64,000 nucleotides of DNA, taken from NCBI GenBank assembly GCA_902619165.1, contig CACNDI010000006.1, forward strand, positions 47,342-111,341, given 5' to 3'. The first letter of the stretch is position 1; every line of letters starts with the position of its first letter. A model generated the notes under the pieces. The model saw nothing but the letters and a program-made list of their open reading frames with translations. It was not told the DNA's origin and did not search any database. The stretch comes from an uncultured Alphaproteobacteria bacterium (GTDB lineage: Bacteria; Pseudomonadota; Alphaproteobacteria; Rhodobacterales; Rhodobacteraceae). This document shows, piece by piece, positions 52,104 through 64,000 of the stretch. Made by a program: the position numbers and the translations under genes.

Positions 52104-53969
52104 ATGAATTTTGAAAAAATAGATAGAAAAATTTCTGTGATATTTGCGACAGATGTCGTTGACTATAGCTTGCATATGGAAAAAGACGAGACAGGAACGA
52201 TAACAAGTCTAAGGGCATATGAAAAAATTTTAAAAGAAGCTTTTAAGAAACATGGAGGACGACTTTTCAATACAGGAGGAGATTCTTTCATGGCTGAGTT
52301 TTCCAGTGCAGTAAAGGCTGTAGAATGTGCTATCGATTTCCAAAATATTGTAAAAGAGAAAAATATAAAACCTGCTCTTAGTTTTAGGATAGGAATTAAT
52401 GCAGGGGATGTGATACTAGAGAAGAAAAATCTGCTGGGCGATGGCGTTAATGTAGCAGCGCGCCTTGAGCAATTATCACAACCTAATGGGATAACCATTT
52501 CAAAAAGTATCTTCGATTATATTGAAGGTAAATTAGATTTAAAAATTCAAGATTTAGGTATTCAACAGGTCAAGAAAAACAAGTTTCATGCTTTTGACAT
52601 TTTACTAGATCCAACACAAAAAAGAGATTTAAAGAAAAAGAAATATAATCTTATAATAGCTAGTGTAGTCGCACTATTTCTTCTGTTCTTTGGTTTTGTT
52701 TATTACCAAACTACCAACAACGGTGAAACTCCTGAGACCTTAATCACTAAATCTGATAGGCCATCTATTCTTGTGCTACCCTTTAAAAATCTTTCTGCTT
52801 CAGAAAATGAATTTGTTGCCTCCGGTATAACCGATACACTCATATCAACTCTTTCTAACTATAAACAACTTTTAGTGCAATCCCGAAACACTAGTGATTT
52901 TGTTTCAAAAAATAAATTTTCTGATAAAGAAATATTAGCAAACTATAAAACGCAGTATGTCATATCCGGTAGTGTTCAGGTAGCAGGTGAAAAAACACGT
53001 ATAAATGTTCAGCTTAATGATCTTTTGAAAAACGACACTCTCTACTCAGAAAAATATGACTTTGAGTTGCAAGATTTATTTAAAGTGCAAGACACGCTCA
53101 GTGAAGAAATTTTAAATAAGTTGTCAATTAAGCTTATAGTAGGTTCACTTGGTCAAGATTATAGAAAATACTTTAAGTCTGTAGAAAGCTGGCGTAAAAG
53201 CTTTAAGGCAAGGTCAGAGCTTATAAAAGGTACTCCTGAAAGCATTCAAAATCTTGGCAGGCTTGCCGATGAATTGATGCGTGATGAGCCTGACAATCCA
53301 ATGTCGCTAGTTTTAAAAGGATGGCATCTACTATATACAGTAACAAACAAGCAAGAAGCTATAAAGGGTTATAAACTGGCTTTAAAGTCTATACAGCTAG
53401 GTCCAGATATTTCAGAAACACACGTATTAACAGCTTTTTTCGAATTTGGTCATGCAGAAAAGCTTTTTGATCAAAGAAAAGACGCACTAGCTTTAGCAGA
53501 AAAAAGGGCTGTAATTGCAGGAGAGTTAAATAAAAGTAGTCCCCATGCCTTTGCATCTGTTGGCAATATTCTTTCAGGAGTTGGAAAATATAAAGAAGCA
53601 CTTCCCAATTATAAAAAGGCAATTGCTATAGCGCCACATGCTGAGTCGTGGATCAAGACAGCGTTTTTAAATACGCTCGTGATACTTGAAAAATATGATG
53701 AAGCTATTCCTATAGCAATAGAATTGGCGAGTGCTGATCAATTCGCATCTAATTCGAGGGCAGCTGCTTTTTCAATGCTGGCTTTTATTAGCTTTAAACA
53801 AGGAAATAAAAAGAAGGCTTCTCAATATATTGAGAAATTACAAAATCTTGATTTGAAAGAGTTACAAATGTCACCTTTGGAAATAGTGATGGGCAGCCTA
53901 TACAACATAGAGGACGACAGCTTCAAAGGAGAATTTAAGAACACTCTTTATGGGTTAGGACTCATATAA
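52104..53969 (+). CDS. Adenylate/guanylate cyclase domain + TM + TolB-like + TPR protein
   Basis: ISVIFATDVVDYSLHMEKDE, GDGVNVAARLEQLSQPNGITISKSI, TM stretch, PSILVLPFKNLSASENEFVASGITDTLISTLS, C-terminal TPR-like repeats. Confidence 0.92.
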   Translation: MNFEKIDRKISVIFATDVVDYSLHMEKDETGTITSLRAYEKILKEAFKKHGGRLFNTGGDSFMAEFSSAVKAVECAIDFQNIVKEKNIKPALSFRIGINAGDVILEKKNLLGDGVNVAARLEQLSQPNGITISKSIFDYIEGKLDLKIQDLGIQQVKKNKFHAFDILLDPTQKRDLKKKKYNLIIASVVALFLLFFGFVYYQTTNNGETPETLITKSDRPSILVLPFKNLSASENEFVASGITDTLISTLSNYKQLLVQSRNTSDFVSKNKFSDKEILANYKTQYVISGSVQVAGEKTRINVQLNDLLKNDTLYSEKYDFELQDLFKVQDTLSEEILNKLSIKLIVGSLGQDYRKYFKSVESWRKSFKARSELIKGTPESIQNLGRLADELMRDEPDNPMSLVLKGWHLLYTVTNKQEAIKGYKLALKSIQLGPDISETHVLTAFFEFGHAEKLFDQRKDALALAEKRAVIAGELNKSSPHAFASVGNILSGVGKYKEALPNYKKAIAIAPHAESWIKTAFLNTLVILEKYDEAIPIAIELASADQFASNSRAAAFSMLAFISFKQGNKKKASQYIEKLQNLDLKELQMSPLEIVMGSLYNIEDDSFKGEFKNTLYGLGLI

Positions 53970-54070
53970 TTCAACAGTATTAATACTGAACCTAATTTAC
54001 AACGAACATTTACCTAAATGTGTCAATTTGGCGCTAGAAACCACGGGTTAAAAAACAATATTTCAATGGA

Positions 54071-54086
54071 GGGATTTGAAAATCCC
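54071..54086. other. Perfect hairpin GGGATT-TGAA-AATCCC
   Basis: gggatttgaaaatccc at 54071-54086, inverted repeat in the noncoding gap; T-run follows about 14 nt downstream, so not a canonical terminator. Confidence 0.35.
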
Positions 54087-54103
54087 TAACGCCAGTCGTT
54101 TTT

Positions 54104-54125
54104 TTTGGCATTACGTTTGGCATTA
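54104..54125. repeat. Tandem direct repeat TTTGGCATTA(CG)
   Basis: TTTGGCATTA at 54104-54113 and 54116-54125, 12-nt period. Confidence 0.6.
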
Positions 54126-54159
54126 AAAAAAATAACGTATTGATTTTATTGGGAAAAAT

Positions 54160-54192
54160 TGGCTCCGGCGGTTGGGATCGAACCAACGACCC
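54160..54192 (-). other. 3' tRNA fragment (tRNA-Asn-like), putative integration attachment core
   Basis: Minus strand: GG-GTC-GTTGG-TTCGATC-CCAAC-CGCCGGA-G-CCA, i.e. T-stem/loop, 3' acceptor strand, G discriminator, CCA; no anticodon arm, D-arm or TCCGGCG 5' acceptor strand adjoining. Confidence 0.75.
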
Positions 54193-54193
54193 T

Positions 54194-54223
54194 AGTGTCA
54201 TACCTGATCATAAAGTGTCACAC
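54194..54223. repeat. Direct repeats AGTGTCAYAC with 20-bp spacing
   Basis: AGTGTCATAC (54194-54203) and AGTGTCACAC (54214-54223), centred on a TGATCA palindrome, directly flanking the tRNA fragment. Confidence 0.5.
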
Positions 54224-54307
54224 TCATCTTTTAAGCAGCTTGTCAGCAGCGGAGGAATTTTGTCGTTATTTTGGGTTGTGGCTTTAAAAAAGCTTGAGTA
54301 GTTTTAA

Positions 54308-55717
54308 TCACTTTTCATTATCTTTTATAAAATCAAAACAAGCTGCTGCAACATTTTCAGGTCTTTCGATATGGGTCCAATGCAGTGCATCTTTAATAAT
54401 AACAAATCTCGAAAATCTTGCCCCTTTCTTTGTTTTTATAGTTGAGTATTTATTAGAAGAATTAGTTTTAACAAATTTCTTCCAGTTTTTTTTCCATGTT
54501 GGATCAGCTCTATCTTGAAATTTCCCCCCTGGAAGTAGGTCCTCTATTTCATTTGGCCAAAAATTCCAAATACCCCAATAGGGTTGATCTCCAGTATGGT
54601 TTGATATTATTCCGAAATCGCCGGGTAAATCAGCAAAAATATATGTTGGGAACCTTAATCTAAAAAGTCTAAAAATCCCAGTTACTTTACCAAATCCAAT
54701 CAATCCCATAATTTTTCTATAAAATGGCATTTTTTTAGCACCAGGAATTTTTTCTGCGAGAAGCATTTCATCGGATCCTTGAAATTGCATCATAGGAAAG
54801 TCCGTGTCTAGTATACAAAAGCCTCGAGATCGATCGGAACGCCTTCTTCCTTCATCAAGAAAATCGGTCTGCCGAAATATTTGCCTTGTCAGCTTAAAAA
54901 AATAATCAGATTGATTTGGCATTCCTTGAATTGCCTCCCATCGATCAGATATTTCTGTCCCTCTTTTTGCTATTGATGCCTCTTTAGAAAATGAGGGCGC
55001 AATAAATCCAAAAGGAGCACCACCCATAATTGCGCCTTTCAAAAGTTTAGGAAATGCTTTAGTAGCCATAATTCGATGAGGTGGACCCAGAAAAATCCCC
55101 TCTTCAGTCAGTTTTGTCCATTCTTCTTTGAAATTGGTCCAGCCCTGTGATCCTCTTGAATAAGAAATTGCCATCTCAGGGTACTGAGCAAGCATATTAT
55201 CCATGACTATACATCCGCGATCATGTCCCACAAAATGAGCTTTCTTTATTTTTAATCCAACAGAGATAATCTTTTTCAGTGTGTGAGCACAATTTTCTAA
55301 GTCAAATCGAGGATCTATTTTCACCTTTCCCCTCATTTTTATAATTTTGCCAGGAGGTATATAACCGTCATATTTGGCCGTCATTGTAGGGTGTTTTTTA
55401 ATTACGGTGTACTCTTCTAGAAATGGCACAGTTACAGTTATAAAATAAAATTTACTCTCTTTATCATTAATTACCATGTTAGACACAAGCCAGCGCGCGT
55501 CTGCTAAACTGTCTTCAAATACGCCCATCATTAAAATTACCGGTGTACCTTTTTTATTTCCTGCCAATGAAACTCTGTGCTTATGGCCTTCAATCTCGAT
55601 ATATTTAACCACGAAATTGATCCCATTTGTTTGAGGAAGTGAGTACATTTTTTTTGCCATTTTTTTAGGTTTGAACAATTTCGATTTTTGATTAGCCAGA
55701 CCCGTTGACTTTAGCAA
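54308..55717 (-). CDS. Alpha/beta hydrolase (epoxide-hydrolase/dehalogenase-like)
   Basis: GTPVILMMGVFEDSLADARWL, AHFVGHDRGCIVMDNMLAQYP nucleophile elbow, C-terminal DALHWTHIERPENVAAACFDFI. Confidence 0.85.
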   Translation of the reverse strand: MLKSTGLANQKSKLFKPKKMAKKMYSLPQTNGINFVVKYIEIEGHKHRVSLAGNKKGTPVILMMGVFEDSLADARWLVSNMVINDKESKFYFITVTVPFLEEYTVIKKHPTMTAKYDGYIPPGKIIKMRGKVKIDPRFDLENCAHTLKKIISVGLKIKKAHFVGHDRGCIVMDNMLAQYPEMAISYSRGSQGWTNFKEEWTKLTEEGIFLGPPHRIMATKAFPKLLKGAIMGGAPFGFIAPSFSKEASIAKRGTEISDRWEAIQGMPNQSDYFFKLTRQIFRQTDFLDEGRRRSDRSRGFCILDTDFPMMQFQGSDEMLLAEKIPGAKKMPFYRKIMGLIGFGKVTGIFRLFRLRFPTYIFADLPGDFGIISNHTGDQPYWGIWNFWPNEIEDLLPGGKFQDRADPTWKKNWKKFVKTNSSNKYSTIKTKKGARFSRFVIIKDALHWTHIERPENVAAACFDFIKDNEK

Positions 55718-55759
55718 TGTTAAAGTTCAAAATAAATACCTAAAGTTTAGGAAAATATA

Positions 55760-56692
55760 TTGAAATTAGGAACAGTTGAACATAAAAAAGAAATTAAGGT
55801 TATCGTTTTAGTTGAAAATGATACTTTTCTTGATGTCGCGAAGGCAGCAGCTCAAGCTAGAATCACTGATTTCGACTTTACAGACATGCAACGATTAATT
55901 GAACAAGGCGAGAATGCTTTGGAGAAGGTATCGTTTCTGCTTGATCAAAGTAATGAGAGTTGTTTTATCTCCGCTGACGAAGTAGTTTTTCGCCCGCCTG
56001 TAATACCATTACAATATAGAGCATTTTCAATTTTCGAAGATCATTTAAAAAATGCGTTTGCACAAGCTACTAAGCTTTCAGGTATAAAGTATGAGATACC
56101 TCCAGTGTGGTATGAACAGCCAATTTATTATAAAGGCAATAGACTCTCTTTTGTTGGTCATAAAGCAGAAATAAAATGGCCATCATTTTCCGAATTTTTA
56201 GATATAGAATTGGAAATAGCAGCTATTATTGGAAAAAAAGGGAGAGATATTAAAGAAGAAGACGCTTCAAATTATATTTTTGGCTATAGTATTTTAAACG
56301 ATATATCTGCTAGAGATGCACAAATGAAAGAAATGCCTGGTCAAATGGGCCCGGCAAAAAGCAAGGATTTCGATACTGGCAATGTTCTAGGCCCTTTTAT
56401 TTTAACAGCAGATGAAGTTGATCACCCTGTTGCTTTAAACATGGAAGCAAGAGTGAATGGGAGCGTGTGGGGCGGTGGTAATAGTAAAGATATGCATCAC
56501 TCTTTTTCTGATATAATTGCTCACATTTCTAGATCAGAGACAATTTACCCCGGAGAGGTTATCGGTTCAGGGACGGTTGGTACCGGTTCAGGGATAGAGT
56601 CCGGTAAAAAACTAGCCCCAGGTGATGAATTTGAACTTGAGATTGAAAAAATTGGGACTCTTTCTAATAAAATAGTAAGGACAGGTTTATGA
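55760..56692 (+). CDS. Fumarylacetoacetate hydrolase (FAH) family protein
   Basis: LDIELEIAAIIGKKGRDI, FGYSILNDISARDAQ, KSKDFDTGNVLGPFILTADEV, PGEVIGSGTVGTGSG. Confidence 0.93.
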   Translation: MKLGTVEHKKEIKVIVLVENDTFLDVAKAAAQARITDFDFTDMQRLIEQGENALEKVSFLLDQSNESCFISADEVVFRPPVIPLQYRAFSIFEDHLKNAFAQATKLSGIKYEIPPVWYEQPIYYKGNRLSFVGHKAEIKWPSFSEFLDIELEIAAIIGKKGRDIKEEDASNYIFGYSILNDISARDAQMKEMPGQMGPAKSKDFDTGNVLGPFILTADEVDHPVALNMEARVNGSVWGGGNSKDMHHSFSDIIAHISRSETIYPGEVIGSGTVGTGSGIESGKKLAPGDEFELEIEKIGTLSNKIVRTGL

Positions 56693-57315
56693 GCAAATGG
56701 GATACCACTGGTCTTGATGAAAACAAAAAACCGAGGTTGGACTATAAAAATCGTGATCAATTATCTGATGAGTTAAAAGATATCTTTGACTCTATCGTGT
56801 CATCCAAAAGAGGTGTGGGAACCCTATCAAATGGCGCACTTCCAGGACCTTTTAATGCTTGGATGTATACAGATCCTGAAATGGCAGACGCTTTGGATAA
56901 AATTGGCGTTGCCATCAGAGTAAATACTAAAAATGCTCCCGCAGATATGAAAGCTATTGCTATATGTACCGTTGCTGTACATTATAAAAGTAATGTAGAA
57001 TTCTGGGCACACAGTCAAACTGCTCTGGCAAATGGTGTTTCTCAAGACATCTTGAATGATTTACTTGCAGAAAGGGACCCTTCGTTTGAGAAGACAGATA
57101 CAGGAAAGCGCTTAAAAATAGCTTATTTATTTGCAAAAGAATATCTTGCAACCTTCAGAGTTTCTGACACCACATATAAAGAAACCCTCGACATGATTGG
57201 GTCTAAAAAAGGACTTATAGAATTCATTCTAGCGATTTCACACTATATCGGTTTGGCCGCTCAATTAAATATTTTGAGAGTACCAAATCCTGGAGACAAA
57301 CAATTTTTTGATTAA
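56689..57315 (+). CDS. Carboxymuconolactone decarboxylase family protein
   Basis: PFNAWMYTDPEMADALDKIGVAIR, MKAIAICTVAVHYKSNVEFWAHSQTALANGVS; ATGA overlap with FAH gene. Confidence 0.88.
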   Translation: MSKWDTTGLDENKKPRLDYKNRDQLSDELKDIFDSIVSSKRGVGTLSNGALPGPFNAWMYTDPEMADALDKIGVAIRVNTKNAPADMKAIAICTVAVHYKSNVEFWAHSQTALANGVSQDILNDLLAERDPSFEKTDTGKRLKIAYLFAKEYLATFRVSDTTYKETLDMIGSKKGLIEFILAISHYIGLAAQLNILRVPNPGDKQFFD

Positions 57316-57318
57316 GAA

Positions 57319-57675
57319 ATGAGTGACGTTATTGCAATTATAAAGTCTGAAGAATTAGTCGAATTAGGCGCTCTAATGGTCGATCTTCCCCAAAATGCTG
57401 ATGGTCTTAAAGTTTTAATTACAAGATTTGAAGGTAAGGTTAGGGCGTGGATAAATTCATGTCCTCACGATGGTAGACCTCTTTGTCGTGACCCAGCATT
57501 TCTGTGGGAAAAAAGAAAAAAGTTACTTCAGTGTATGAACCATCAAGCCTTGTTTGATGCAAAAACTGGAATATGCGAAGAAGGGCCATGTAAGGGGAAA
57601 TCACTTTATGGCTTGATAACCAAAGAAAAAAATAACCAGATAATAGTTTCTAAAGGAGAACCGAAAAATGGATGA
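57319..57675 (+). CDS. Rieske [2Fe-2S] ferredoxin-like protein
   Basis: CPHDGRPL (CxH) and CMNHQALFDAKTGICEEGPCKGKSL (CxxH). Confidence 0.92.
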   Translation: MSDVIAIIKSEELVELGALMVDLPQNADGLKVLITRFEGKVRAWINSCPHDGRPLCRDPAFLWEKRKKLLQCMNHQALFDAKTGICEEGPCKGKSLYGLITKEKNNQIIVSKGEPKNG

Positions 57676-59053
57676 AAAAGAAAAATTAGTAGAAAGAGAT
57701 CTTCATCTTTTTGAGGCAATAAATGAGGGTAAGGGTGAACATCTTGAAGGGTCAGAGTCACTACCACCTATTAAGCCGTTAACTAAAGCATGGGACGTAG
57801 CTTATGTTCGCTTTTCAGTACCTGATTTGAACCTCTATGAAGATTGGGTAAAGGACTTTGGATTGAAGATAATGTATAAAGACGAGAACGTAATATATTC
57901 TAGGGGTTTGGAAGGAGACGGGTTTTGTCATGTAGCTCACCGGGGACCAGCTAAATTTTTGGGTTTCGCTTTACAAATGAAGAGTGAAAAAGACCTAAAA
58001 ATCCTCGAGGAAAATATTGATGGATGTACCAAGGTGCACGAAATACCTGGAATTGAGGGATCATTGTGTGGAGGTAAAAGAGTGTCATTTATTGATCCAG
58101 TATGCGGTTTTTTAGTTGAAGCTGTATCGGGTAGAAGTGTAGAGATCTTAACCTCTGCAAGAGACAGATTAGAGTACAACTACGGAAATAAAAATTTCTA
58201 CAAACGAGACCCAAACAAATTACAGGATACTTCTGGAAATAGAGAAGCTGACGGTAGTAATACTGTTTATCCTGGTCCACCGGATGTAATAAAAATAGGC
58301 CATGTAGTTTTAGCAGCGCCAGTAGGAGATCACCATAAATTGATGAAATTTATGATTGAAACTTTTGGATTCCTTCCAACTGATAGTGTAATTTTTGAGG
58401 CACCAAAATCTGCAGAAGGCCACGCAATCAATCCTGAAATGTTTAATAAGCTCAAAGAAGCTGGTCCTTCACCCTTATACGAGGGTACATTTGCAGAGGG
58501 TTCGCCTACTTACGCTTGTTTTTTTAGATGCGATAGAGGAGAAACACCTACGGACCATCATACTTTTTTTATTCTGTCTAATATGGATCCCAGAATGGCT
58601 CCGAAAGGGAAAGGTATTCAAACGCAGTTAAGCCATGCATCCTTTGAAGTATCTAATTTAGACGATGTTTGGCGGGGACATATGCAATTGAAAAATAAAG
58701 CTGAATTTGAAGAAAAAAGATATGAGATTGCTTGGGGGGTTGGTAGACATGTTTTAGGGTCTCATATTTATGATTACTGGCATGATCCGTATGGCCATGT
58801 TCATGAACACATGTCCGACGGTGACAGAATTACGAGATCCTTTGGGCAGAGAATACACTCAATAAGTGGTTTAGGACCTAATGGACACAATCAATGGGGC
58901 CCCACAGTGAAAGAGTCTGGTATCAGAAACCTTGATGGACCTGCTGCAGCTACTTTTTATGAGAAATTTGATGAAGAAACTCAGCAATCACTGGTCAATA
59001 GAGATCTGTCAAACGTTAAACAGCTGGTAGAAGCCATTAGAGCCACTGATTAA
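57668..59053 (+). CDS. VOC family two-domain extradiol-dioxygenase-like protein
   Basis: AYVRFSVPDLNLYEDWVKDFGLKIMYKDE, KIGHVVLAAPVGDHHKLMKFMIETFGF, LSHASFEVSNLDDVWRGHMQL, HIYDYWHDPYGHVHEHMSDGD. Confidence 0.9.
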   Translation: MDEKEKLVERDLHLFEAINEGKGEHLEGSESLPPIKPLTKAWDVAYVRFSVPDLNLYEDWVKDFGLKIMYKDENVIYSRGLEGDGFCHVAHRGPAKFLGFALQMKSEKDLKILEENIDGCTKVHEIPGIEGSLCGGKRVSFIDPVCGFLVEAVSGRSVEILTSARDRLEYNYGNKNFYKRDPNKLQDTSGNREADGSNTVYPGPPDVIKIGHVVLAAPVGDHHKLMKFMIETFGFLPTDSVIFEAPKSAEGHAINPEMFNKLKEAGPSPLYEGTFAEGSPTYACFFRCDRGETPTDHHTFFILSNMDPRMAPKGKGIQTQLSHASFEVSNLDDVWRGHMQLKNKAEFEEKRYEIAWGVGRHVLGSHIYDYWHDPYGHVHEHMSDGDRITRSFGQRIHSISGLGPNGHNQWGPTVKESGIRNLDGPAAATFYEKFDEETQQSLVNRDLSNVKQLVEAIRATD

Positions 59054-59056
59054 ATA

Positions 59057-60700
59057 TTAATGTGCAACTAGGTCAAAAAGAGACTTATAGTCGGCAAACA
59101 GTTTGTCTTCCTCACCATTATTGTATGTGCCCAACATTGTATAGCCAGGAGCCATCAGTACGTACTCCGCCTTATTGAAAAGCTTTCTATGCATTTTTTT
59201 ATCTTCTTTTCTTGGAGCACAAACCAAAATGTCATCTGAAGTCTTTTCGCCATTTAACCCTTCAGAAAGTACGATACATAGAGGCTTAATTGCTTTGTCT
59301 ATATTTTTCAGCAACTTATCGATCTCAACAGATGAATTGTTGCAAAGCACCCTGTATTCAAAGGGCTTATATTCGCGTAGTGATCTTGGGAACCCTTCTT
59401 TAGTCATGAAGTTATACATTGGGTACCCTTTTTGATTTGTTTTTCCAGGCTTAAATCCATTTGGAACCGTGATAGTCTCTGGGACAAACGCGGGAAATAA
59501 ATCAATCGGGCTACCTCTTGCACCCTTGAAAAAGTAAATTATGCTTCTTAAAAAATTTATATGAGGCTTAACATTGAAAAGCATATTACCCATGAAAAGC
59601 GATTGCTTAATGATAAATTGAGAGTCAGGAAAACATTCGACTTGATATTTGTCCAAAATTGATGCCTCCGAAACTCCTTTATTAACTAAATCAATTTTTT
59701 TAATTAAGTTAAAGGTATTTCTAATACCAAGATTTAGCCCCTGACCAAGAAATGGAGAAGTTTGATGAGTAGCATCTCCAATCGTGAAGGTATTATTTGC
59801 TCTCCACATCTCGGAAATCATTGAATTGAACTTGTATACTGTAGATCTTAATATTTTAAAACTACTCTTCCTTAAAAATGGTTCTACTAATTTCTCAATG
59901 GAATCTGGAGACTGCATTTGCGTAAAGTTCTCACCATCTTTCAAGGCAAACTCAAACCTAAAATTATTTTTATAAGTTCCGTGCTTTTTGCCGGTCATAT
60001 TTATAAATGTGGTAGGCCTTTTTCCAGAGGGATCAATAATTTGCCAACCCCCAGCATCGAAATGCATGCCATCCTTCAAGGAGCTTACTGGTGCTTCGAT
60101 ATCGGCAACCAGAAAAGATATAGCCTTCCCTAGTGTTTTTAAGTTAGCTCCCATCTGCTTTCTAACAAAGCTTCCCCCTCCATCCGCACCAATCAAGTAT
60201 TTAGATGTAATTGTTTCTGTTTTTCCTGATACTGTATTTTGGATCTGCAAACAGTTTCTACTCTTCTCTTCCCACAGGACAAGCGACTCAGTACCAAAAT
60301 ATGTCGTGATATTTTTATTTTTCTTAATTTGTATTCTGAGCAATTTCTCGAGCTGTGGCTGATTAAACCAGTTTAAAAATCCATACTTATCTAGATCGAG
60401 TACTTTTCCTTCAATAATTGGAGGTTCCATTTTTCCAAATGGCTTATCCATTTTTGTGATCCCCATTACGTACCCGACCTCAACTGCAGAAGTAAATTGA
60501 AATTCCTTCCAGCTATCTTTCAGAACAGTTTCTATTATACTCATAGAGTAGCCATTTAAACCTACTGCCCTAGGATGAGGGTAAGGAGATTTATTTAAAT
60601 CGATGACCGCTACCTTAAATCCCCTATTTGCCAGCAACAAAGAAGCAATTCCGCCGACGGGACCACACCCATTTAATATTACATCATAGTTATGAGACAT
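59057..60700 (-). CDS. FAD-dependent aromatic monooxygenase (MhpA/PheA-like)
   Basis: DVILNGCGPVGGIASLLLANRGFKVAVID, YLIGADGGGSFVRKQMG, TIGDATHQTSPFLGQGLNLGIRNTFNL. Confidence 0.92.
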   Translation of the reverse strand: MSHNYDVILNGCGPVGGIASLLLANRGFKVAVIDLNKSPYPHPRAVGLNGYSMSIIETVLKDSWKEFQFTSAVEVGYVMGITKMDKPFGKMEPPIIEGKVLDLDKYGFLNWFNQPQLEKLLRIQIKKNKNITTYFGTESLVLWEEKSRNCLQIQNTVSGKTETITSKYLIGADGGGSFVRKQMGANLKTLGKAISFLVADIEAPVSSLKDGMHFDAGGWQIIDPSGKRPTTFINMTGKKHGTYKNNFRFEFALKDGENFTQMQSPDSIEKLVEPFLRKSSFKILRSTVYKFNSMISEMWRANNTFTIGDATHQTSPFLGQGLNLGIRNTFNLIKKIDLVNKGVSEASILDKYQVECFPDSQFIIKQSLFMGNMLFNVKPHINFLRSIIYFFKGARGSPIDLFPAFVPETITVPNGFKPGKTNQKGYPMYNFMTKEGFPRSLREYKPFEYRVLCNNSSVEIDKLLKNIDKAIKPLCIVLSEGLNGEKTSDDILVCAPRKEDKKMHRKLFNKAEYVLMAPGYTMLGTYNNGEEDKLFADYKSLFDLVAH

Positions 60701-60813
60701 TTCGGAAATACATTTAATTTATATTTTGAACTTAAAGAGTAGATGAAATATTTAGAAAATACAAACTTTCAGATTATAAAAGCTTGAAATTTTTTATTAA
60801 ACTAAACCTTACT

Positions 60814-62685
60814 CTATTTAAGATCACCTATTTTACTTAGTCCTTTAAGAGTTTTTTCTAAAAGCTCTTTTTGATGAGAATTGAACTCCCTGAACTGTCT
60901 GAATTGTCGTTCAAATTTTTTCTTGTCGAAATTATTTTTTTTTGCTCTCTCATAGTATTGTTTTGCCCTCTTCAAGTTACCTTTCTCGTATTCAAGAAAT
61001 GCATACAAAGCTAAAGCTGTAGGCCGCATGTCTTCAGCATCTATATCATCACCAAGCAACTTATAAATTTCATCGATCTGATTATCTTTATAAAGAGAAA
61101 ACAATAAACTGTTAGTAATAAACCAGCCAGTGTCATTAGGGATCAACAGAAGCGCATTTCTCTTTGCTTCAATGCCTTTCTTAATATCACCACAAAGCTC
61201 ATAGACGGTGCCAGCAATTGTTAGTGTGTCAACTGTGCTTCCTATTTCTTCTGCTTGCGCTATGTCGCTCAGCGCCTCCTCACAATTACCATTTAACATC
61301 CTTAGCCCAATTATAGATCTGGCAGCAAATGCATCTCGAGCAACTGGATCTATTTCAATAGCTCTGTCAAGACTATAGTTTAGTCTTTCCATATCCTTTT
61401 CTTTACTTTTACTTAGCCCAAGTAAAAGTTTTTGATACAATTGCCACGCCTCTTGTACGAGAATTGCTCTTGTCTCATCAGGGTAAGAACTCTTAAGTTC
61501 CTCAAACATTCTTAGTGAATTAATGTAACCACTCTTAGTGAATTTGCGCCATTCCTCACGCCAATTTAAAAACAGATTAAAATCTTTCATGGAATTATAG
61601 TCTTTAGTCCAGTTGCTTCCCTGCACAGAGCCAACGCCTAAGCTTATCTGGAGAGTAGTTAAAATTTCATTACTGAGCTCATCTTGAACTTTAAATATAT
61701 CATCCAATTTAAAATCTTTTTTCTTAGAGACTGATACCTTTGAAGCGTCGAGATCGGTTATTTCTAGATTCAGTCTCGCATTATTACCCATGACTTGCAT
61801 TGAACCTCGAATTATGTAGTTGACCCCAAACTCATCCTTAATTGTTTCGTTAATCATCTTTGTTTTTTCAGCGTGAAAGCTGGTGCTACTAGACAATACT
61901 TTTATTGCCTGATAACCGGAAAGAGTAGCTATCATGCTCTCAGTAACGCCATTTGCAAAGCCTTTTTGATTTTCAGACAAACCAGAAGACTTAATTGGCA
62001 TTACTAAGATTACTGGTTTGGATGAGGCCCTTAATTTCCTACTATCGGTTTCGCTATTAAATGCAAAGTAAAATGCACCAAAAAGACTAATTATTATTGC
62101 GGCTACAATAGTGCCCACTACAGCTAAATTTGACTTAGTCTTAGTTTTTAATGTTCTTTTCTGAGAAGGATCAAGAAGAATATCAAAGGCATGAAACTCA
62201 TTTTGCTTTACCTTCTGTACACCCAAATCATTAAACGTCATCTTGGTTTTAGGAACAACCAGATCATAGACACTTTTGGATATGGAGATACCATTGGGTT
62301 GGGCAAGTGCCTCTAATCGTGCCGCAATATTTACTCCATCTCCAAAGAGATTACCTTCTTTCTTAACCACATCACCCATATTGATACCAATACGGAACTC
62401 GAGCTTTACCTCTGTTTTCTCGGATTCATTTCTTTTCTTAATATCATTCTGAAAAGCAACACCACACTCAACGGCATTTACCGCACTTGGAAACTCTGCA
62501 AGAGCGGAGTCACCGGCTGTATTAAAGATAGACCCTTTATATTTCTTTAGACATGTTTTGAGTAGTTTCTCACATTCGGCATAAGCCTTTAAAGTAGCAT
62601 CCTCATCTCTTTCCATATGCTTAGAGTAGCCAACGACGTCAGCTACTAAGATTACAGCTATTTTGCGGTCTATTTCGGTGTTCAT
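60814..62685 (-). CDS. Adenylate/guanylate cyclase domain + TM + TolB-like + TPR protein
   Basis: IAVILVADVVGYSKHMERDED, GDGVNIAARLEALAQPNGISISKSV, VKQNEFHAFDILLDPSQKRTLK, TM stretch, C-terminal TPR; same architecture as 52104..53969. Confidence 0.92.
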   Translation of the reverse strand: MNTEIDRKIAVILVADVVGYSKHMERDEDATLKAYAECEKLLKTCLKKYKGSIFNTAGDSALAEFPSAVNAVECGVAFQNDIKKRNESEKTEVKLEFRIGINMGDVVKKEGNLFGDGVNIAARLEALAQPNGISISKSVYDLVVPKTKMTFNDLGVQKVKQNEFHAFDILLDPSQKRTLKTKTKSNLAVVGTIVAAIIISLFGAFYFAFNSETDSRKLRASSKPVILVMPIKSSGLSENQKGFANGVTESMIATLSGYQAIKVLSSSTSFHAEKTKMINETIKDEFGVNYIIRGSMQVMGNNARLNLEITDLDASKVSVSKKKDFKLDDIFKVQDELSNEILTTLQISLGVGSVQGSNWTKDYNSMKDFNLFLNWREEWRKFTKSGYINSLRMFEELKSSYPDETRAILVQEAWQLYQKLLLGLSKSKEKDMERLNYSLDRAIEIDPVARDAFAARSIIGLRMLNGNCEEALSDIAQAEEIGSTVDTLTIAGTVYELCGDIKKGIEAKRNALLLIPNDTGWFITNSLLFSLYKDNQIDEIYKLLGDDIDAEDMRPTALALYAFLEYEKGNLKRAKQYYERAKKNNFDKKKFERQFRQFREFNSHQKELLEKTLKGLSKIGDLK

Positions 62686-62712: not shown

Positions 62713-64000
62713 TCAATTATCTCTGTTCCAAAAATAGCTGTCTAATACGTCAGGACTTAACCCAATAGTTTCTTGGATCGCCGGGAGAAATCTATTGCTG
62801 AAGAAACCAAAATGAATAGTAACAAAGGGAAACTGAAAAAAGTTATCGAAAATATCTTCATTAGATAGATCATTTCTCTTCTTGAATACATTCCAAATTT
62901 TTCTTGCTTCATCTTTGTTTCCCTCTGTAGCTAATAGGAACACTTTACTCACTGTTCCCCAAAAATTTAGATTTTTATCATTATCCTTGAGCATTTCATC
63001 AACAAGTATATTTGCCTTTTCCATCTTTTTTTCTTCTGTGTAAGCTGCAAGGAGATAAACCTTAGCAGAAGGTGGACCATAAGGAGCAATTTCGATCGCC
63101 CTTTCAAAATACTCTGAATTAAAAAGCATTTCGAAATCAAATTTACTCACCAATGCCGGCGAAATCCAAAAAGCGTGACCAGTCCACAACAAACTGAGGT
63201 AGTTATCGGGTTCCATGTCTAAACCCTTAAAGGCAATTACACTTCGTAGGTCAGTTTCTTCATCAAATCTATATTCGAAATAAGCCTTTACCGGATACAC
63301 CATTGGGTTGTTAGGATCTAATTTGTTAGCTTTTTTGATGCTTTTCAAAATTTCTTTTCGTTTTTCGTAATATTCAGCACCCTCCTCTTCGTTATAAAGA
63401 GAAATAGCATACAAGAGATGAGCTTGAGAATTATCTGGATTATCATCTTTAATTTCTTTGAATGCGTCTGAATAGTTAGCTCCAACTTTTCCAGCATCCT
63501 TTTTCTGAAAAGATATCCATGCTTTAAGAGAAGATCGATACAGTTCGCCAGTACCAAAATATTTTACAAAGGAATCTGAAAACTCCTTACCCATAGTAAA
63601 TTTTTCTTGAATTGCTTTTCTAACTTCAAATTCAATTAAATCTTGCGCAGCAAAAGTATCATCAGTTGAAAAATCTTTCATGAATGACCAAACCACGTTT
63701 TTCTTTCCTACATCTAATAGCTCTAAATTAACTCTAAATTTATTTCCTTGTACTGAAGTGGAGCCATCAATAAGAAATCCAACATTATATCCGCTTTCAA
63801 GATCTTCAATTGGGATATTTTTAGAATTTATCTGATCAGTTTCTTCCTTTGGAACAACAGGAAGTAACACTGTTGGGGACAAGCCCGAGATTAATTGGTT
63901 TTGAATACCACGGGATAAGTTTAGACCAGTATCATCAGAACTTAGATTTTCTAATTCTTTAATTAGTATTCTTTTACCGAGTAGCTTGTTTTGTATTTCA
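62713..64000 (-). CDS. TolB-like/TPR C-terminal part of a third cyclase-TPR-family protein (5' end beyond window)
   Basis: Frame stays open from 63882 to 64000 (EIQNKLLGKRILIKELENLSSDDTGLNLSRGIQNQLISGLSPTVLLP...); FLIDGSTSVQGNKFRVNLELLDV ... DDTFAAQDLIEFEV parallels the two paralogues. The cyclase domain itself is not visible. Confidence 0.75.
   Translation of the reverse strand, partial: EIQNKLLGKRILIKELENLSSDDTGLNLSRGIQNQLISGLSPTVLLPVVPKEETDQINSKNIPIEDLESGYNVGFLIDGSTSVQGNKFRVNLELLDVGKKNVVWSFMKDFSTDDTFAAQDLIEFEVRKAIQEKFTMGKEFSDSFVKYFGTGELYRSSLKAWISFQKKDAGKVGANYSDAFKEIKDDNPDNSQAHLLYAISLYNEEEGAEYYEKRKEILKSIKKANKLDPNNPMVYPVKAYFEYRFDEETDLRSVIAFKGLDMEPDNYLSLLWTGHAFWISPALVSKFDFEMLFNSEYFERAIEIAPYGPPSAKVYLLAAYTEEKKMEKANILVDEMLKDNDKNLNFWGTVSKVFLLATEGNKDEARKIWNVFKKRNDLSNEDIFDNFFQFPFVTIHFGFFSNRFLPAIQETIGLSPDVLDSYFWNRDN

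Follow-up and report, generated by a model that had tools for sequence, protein, structure and literature searches.

The truncated tRNA gene examined here is a decayed junction between two gene cassettes, and it has the layout of a phage attP. It lies in the stretch of DNA that was analyzed as a whole (the window; 64,000 nucleotides, G000:C6:47342-111341, ending where its contig ends), and we have little doubt that it is an attachment site. Mobility of the cassettes and identity of their junctions with attP are well supported. The explanation that we favor, and regard as fairly probable, is that integrase-less cassettes bearing the attP sites of temperate phages use a phage integrase in trans and become stacked by accretion downstream of a tRNA gene. 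The features of the window are as follows.

52104..53969, plus strand: neighboring cassette, whose inverted cyclase/TPR gene (621 aa) also occurs in tRNA-Asn arrays L099 and L105 and in tRNA-Met array L097
54056..54158, minus strand: P'-side arm of the next cassette (nhmmer, P'-arm profile, E = 1.6e-18, the window site being in the profile's training set)
54071..54086, no strand assigned: hairpin GGGATTTGAAAATCCC, the window copy of the inverted repeat that comes after the P' arm in phages and cassettes
54104..54125, minus strand: two arm-type repeats with 12-bp spacing, of the AATGCCA type shared with phage contigs L152 and L154
54133..54145, minus strand: IHF-consensus-like site AATCAATACGTTA, between the core and the arm repeats
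54160..54191, minus strand: core, a tRNA-Asn 3' end (variable-loop end, T-arm, 3' acceptor strand, G, CCA), 32/32 nt identical to G000:C27:2281-2355
54194..54259, minus strand: degraded P-side arm (nhmmer, P-arm profile, E = 2.8e-8)
54308..60700, no strand assigned: cargo, the same block occurring in L092, L099, L103, L105, L107, L109, and L111
60814..62685, minus strand: cyclase/TPR gene, linked with the aromatic block in the same way as in L092

Read on the minus strand from 54191 to 54160, the core (GGTCGTTGGTTCGATCCCAACCGCCGGAGCCA) reproduces the 3'-terminal 32 nt of tRNA-Asn(GTT) without a mismatch. The sequence-only reading had recognized this tRNA-Asn-like 3' end and had predicted, beyond position 64000, an intact tRNA-Asn gene with exactly the same end; the window contig stops at that position, but such a gene exists on contig C27 (G000:C27:2281-2355, minus strand) and is the sole intact tRNA-Asn(GTT) found in the 87.8%-complete window genome, ARAGORN detecting no tRNA over the window itself. 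The match between fragment and C27 (65 bp at 86%, E = 2.1e-15) is not due to chance, given its E-value, and it extends about 33 bp beyond the CCA, which is more than a bare att core would explain. A tRNA-Asn 3' end is duplicated outside the intact gene; in relatives, such copies lie downstream of it and in the same orientation, while in the window genome C27 and the window contig are assembled separately. Two other candidates were rejected: a functional tRNA or other RNA family, because Rfam gave no noteworthy match, and a simple duplication of the tRNA plus a cyclase promoter, because junctions adjoin many different cargo genes.

The elements previously noted on both sides of the fragment were all located, although their roles have to be partly reassigned. 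To the left, the TTTGGCATTA pair at 54104 and 54116 (12 bp apart) and the hairpin at 54071-54086 belong to the other arm of a phage-type site that starts the next cassette, and not to plain chromosome, as had been supposed for everything left of 54160. To the right, the AGTGTCAYAC repeats at 54194 and 54214, spaced by 20 bp, had been taken for arm-type repeats, a role for which the 12-bp repeats are better candidates. By itself, AGTGTCAYAC is not rarer than expected by chance, and its significance comes through comparison with relatives; the window pair is the remnant of a longer 10-bp series. An IS21/IS481-type transposon end was rejected for it, since the repeats of relatives run as a 10-bp series up to the tRNA core and recur in phage attP. 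Besides two repeats of this series (54194-54203 and 54214-54223), the P-side arm of the window retains single AACGACA and GCTGACA arm-like heptamers; it was not reached by the R1 model in a genome-wide search at E ≤ 1e-4.

Using the C27 tRNA-Asn plus the sequence downstream of it as a query against 60 relatives, we found multiple 3' fragments of tRNA-Asn to a contig in same-genus genomes; almost all point the same way and have a near-identical cut point. In other genera of the family, the tRNA mostly stands alone. Of the 22 genomes of the genus, 18 were matched by the P-arm model. A wider search of 385 genomes sampled from the class, with stricter filters, gave a single weak match outside the window genome, so the arrays look genus-specific. 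Across the loci examined, sites with this core comprise 10 intact genes and 31 fragments, and tRNA 3' ends recur as junctions of cassette arrays downstream of tRNA-Asn or tRNA-Met. Well-preserved junctions show, in order, TATGAC repeats of about 10 bp, the core, a T-run with an IHF-like site, two or three heptamers at 12-bp spacing (AACGACA, AATGCCA, GCTGACA, or GGTGMCA), and an inverted repeat. Each cassette runs from a P' arm through its cargo to a P arm and is joined to its neighbors at the tRNA-3'-end core, so that att-bounded, integrase-less units lie in tandem at one site, as described for CIMEs and accretion. Inter-core stretches measure 1.5-9 kb, and both cargo and its order vary. Most records found in the pattern scan carry AG-... 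isolate names, which by naming convention we take to designate single-cell genomes, one being the MAG MED-G56, labeled Rhodobacteraceae; because single-cell genomes predominate, mixing of populations is an unlikely cause for most of the arrays. Nine contigs end 135-216 bp past a core start, as expected if the repeat breaks assembly.

The cassettes carry genes useful to the host. Cargo includes cyclase/TPR genes, the aromatic block, flagellin-like genes, an ABC transporter, and proteins without an assigned role. In the window, the block at 54308..60700 encodes a 469-aa protein and a 461-aa protein, both without Pfam match, an FAA hydrolase, a 208-aa protein, a Rieske protein, and an FAD-binding protein. 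The left-hand cyclase gene of the window is itself a cassette in relatives; beside other cyclase copies in the window genome (C1 and C17), no junction was found. The 2.3-Mb genome G000 contains fifteen cyclase-domain matches, at least nine of them close relatives (for example window 52104-53969, window 60814-62685, C27:164-2077, and C1:172511).

The same site was found in phages. Five viral contigs of IMG/VR (L151-L155) match the iteron pattern, and all five have this layout next to a tyrosine integrase. In L151, L153, and L155, the complete site is flanked on one side by an endolysin gene and on the other by a tyrosine integrase gene (PF00589, phrog_1), in a neighborhood of tail-fibre-type genes, and the core matches the tRNA-Asn 3' end of genome G018 exactly. 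L152 and L154 have the same arms and a different tRNA-like core, with an intact tRNA-Asn adjoining the P arm (L152:1515-1589, plus strand; L154:7122-7196, minus strand). Several cassette junctions are near-identical to these present phage attP sites, and a full junction has the structure of a temperate-phage attP. The earlier interpretation of the fragment, as the attachment scar left by a tyrosine integrase that targets tRNA genes, is upheld. The nearest cultured relatives of the phages are distant (about 25-28% identity for the integrase), the endolysin being about 50% identical to that of Roseobacter phages. As a separate observation, L106:16222-16406 (G004) shows the same CTACCC link as L152 and L154, as if a phage-borne tRNA had been the attachment site.

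A second tRNA is involved in the same way. L190, part of a 34.8-kb viral contig, has a tRNA-Met(CAT) 3' end as its core, again beside a tyrosine integrase, and same-genus genomes contain tRNA-Met-core junctions downstream of tRNA-Met, the P' sequence of L097 resembling that of L190 by eye. This second cassette system, of arm type GTTCACA, comprises junctions at L039:8989-9111 (minus), L094:4213-4355 (minus), L097:5752-5867 (plus), and L148:345-487 (plus), and a tRNA-Met at L039:14436-14512 (minus).

Each of L151-L155 has a single type of heptamer, to the left as well as to the right of its core, as in lambda-type attP; for this reason, the 12-bp repeats are probably integrase arm sites. The phage integrases, which we take to be of the lambda type, are 77% identical over their N-terminal 62 aa between A-type and D-type and 96-98% identical after residue 62, a divergence that arm sites read by an N-terminal arm-binding domain would be expected to show. 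Among the 13 scored cassettes, arm types agree at both ends in 7 (permutation p about 0.01, an indicative value since the choice of cassettes and the reading of mixed ends were ours) and differ in 6. A strict match to the IHF consensus occurs in 17 of 45 sites, always at +38/+39 from the core start, against 0.5% of random windows and 0.7% of shuffles. Its place between core and P' arm is again that of lambda-type attP, and the window junction has one. The TATGAC repeats beside the core might bind excisionase, although this is a guess. Five fragments combine the GTAGG 5' T-stem half of phages L151-L155 with the host CCAAC 3' half, giving mismatched stems that were seen in none of the 10 intact tRNAs; these hybrids place the crossover at the T-loop, and in L108:3698 and L099:8222 it falls in or just after it.

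Between species, cassette genes resemble each other much more closely than tRNA-adjacent genes do, which indicates that the cassettes move. At four-fold sites, with divergent alleles of the FAD-binding gene set aside, mean identity is 79% for cassette genes and 55% for tRNA-adjacent genes, and the former exceeds the latter in all 22 species pairs, which are not independent. That the aromatic genes are mobile cargo, as first proposed from the window, agrees with the 95.3% identity over 8,551 bp between window 54155-62685 and L092:10417-1867, in another species, the similarity ending at the core. The 621-aa cyclase cassette is about 94% identical over 2 kb among the window, L099, and L105 (tRNA-Asn arrays) and L097 (tRNA-Met array), whose att arms differ between the two kinds of array.

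No integrase accompanies the arrays. An integrase had been expected next to the intact tRNA-Asn; none lies beside the C27 copy, and PF00589 has no match on any array contig examined in the genus, integron integrases included, so that a tyrosine integrase adjoins the site only in the phage contigs. In G001 (90% complete), just two proteins match PF00589, both XerC/D-like, and a search of the 22 genus genomes (58-91% complete, without positive control) revealed no relative of the phage integrase at E ≤ 1e-15; a resident integrase was accordingly rejected as the mover of the cassettes. G000 contains three further tyrosine integrases, C28:4314-4775, C1:77781-78263, and C15:21130-21582 (the last with an internal TAG in its frame), within about 1.3 kb of a tRNA-Thr, a tRNA-Ser, and a tRNA-Ser, respectively.

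That a phage integrase serves the cassettes in trans seems reasonably likely. An infecting or co-resident tRNA-Asn phage would supply the enzyme, which with IHF would recombine cassette circles or phage-cassette co-integrates with the tRNA core (a BOP' site). Site-specific accretion would then stack the cassettes, leaving one tRNA 3' fragment per junction, and co-excision with a neighboring phage could carry them to new cells. Both the circular or co-integrate intermediate and the cell-to-cell route are what we infer. Several findings speak against such a cycle: the sequences examined show neither a circular cassette nor an excision product nor a prophage-cassette co-integrate, two cargo proteins had no relative in IMG/VR (a collection biased to contigs with viral genes) and so gave no sign of cassettes in virions, as a phage satellite would show, six of the 13 scored cassettes differ in arm type between their ends, and the window junction is degraded.

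Homologous recombination could instead account for the exchanges, the junctions (roughly 300 bp) serving only as portable homology for DNA that enters by transformation or generalized transduction. Marine additive and replacement islands that exchange by recombination are known (PMC5217437), and cassettes whose two ends differ in arm type require exchange off the core, as does the cyclase cargo common to tRNA-Asn and tRNA-Met arrays with differing arms. We nevertheless consider this explanation rather unlikely, because the hybrid cores put the exchange at the T-loop, similarity of the 8.5-kb block stops at the core, and many junctions retain IHF-like and arm sites. The arrays might also be fossil prophages, left by serial integrations into tRNA-Asn that decayed around carried cargo, with sites that move nothing today. 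Many junctions, including that of the window, are indeed degraded, and such a history fits the lack of a phage-type integrase in the 22 genus genomes and the unlike arm types of six scored cassettes. It is, however, difficult to reconcile with the near-identity of several junctions to present phage attP and with the high synonymous identity of cassettes between species, and the array ORFs include no recognized phage structural gene (Pfam on 20 proteins only), so that we hold it to be unlikely.

A single ordinary island between the intact tRNA-Asn and the fragment, with its integrase in an unassembled gap, is very improbable and largely refuted. An intact tRNA does exist and the window contig ends short of it, but relatives carry arrays of fragments and not one island, a cassette also lies to the left of the fragment, and array contigs of the genus are devoid of PF00589 matches. 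Of the integration scar first proposed, the attachment site stands and the single island most probably does not.

Mobilization of the cassettes by a phage integrase in trans would follow a logic of which several kinds are known (PMC3146451, PMC5217437, PMC10872708, PMC11389934). Dehalococcoides ssrA islands also lie in tandem downstream of one RNA gene and are bounded by its 3'-end repeat; 15 lack an integration module and were read as possible cis-mobilizable elements, while 16 carry a serine recombinase (PMC3146451), whereas here a tyrosine integrase is found only on phage contigs, the junctions retain phage arm and IHF-like sites, and many cassettes span only 1.5-9 kb. CIMEs and site-specific tandem accretion of the ICESt1 type, as far as they are covered in PMC3146451, likewise stack att-flanked, integrase-less elements at one site; the helper there is an ICE, whereas here it would be a phage integrase, and several small cassettes per array are possible. 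Aquatic bacteria similarly gain and lose gene cassettes in additive flexible genomic islands (PMC5217437), and in Methylopumilus cassettes lie beside a repeated tRNA 3' end, with 20-bp tRNA-Lys repeats (PMC10872708), but in the present arrays the site of attachment leads back to a particular phage group and its arm-site types. Tycheposons of Prochlorococcus are also tRNA-associated marine cargo elements, moved by tyrosine recombinases that are described, as cited via PMC10872708, as part of the island; none was found in the present arrays. Integron cassette arrays and CALINs are shuffled without an integrase of their own and are served in trans (PMC11389934), but the sites here are tRNA 3' ends with lambda-like arms, and no integron integrase was found. 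To these kinds, the present arrays add junctions that match a defined phage attP, with arms of several types, and the lack of a resident integrase; a literature search, mostly without subscription papers, yielded no description of such phage-attP cassette arrays.

A broader reading, whose chances we see as evenly balanced, is that these arrays are a phage-served counterpart of the integron, in which metabolic and signaling cassettes have a copied phage attP as their only mobile part, and temperate phages, which differ in arm-site type and target two or more tRNAs, supply the integrase and possibly the vehicle. The recombinase behind marine additive islands is usually unknown; here, the cassette att site is matched, arms included, to particular temperate phages. 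One route by which uncultured marine bacteria may exchange genes thus becomes open to test, and the arm-site types, with the integrase N-terminal domains paired with them, form a natural series. Among the cargo, L093:4529-11830 (plus strand) encodes a protein of 2433 aa in which an RTX repeat separates the N- and C-terminal domains of a flagellin; its gene lies in a cassette beside that of a 288-aa flagellin.
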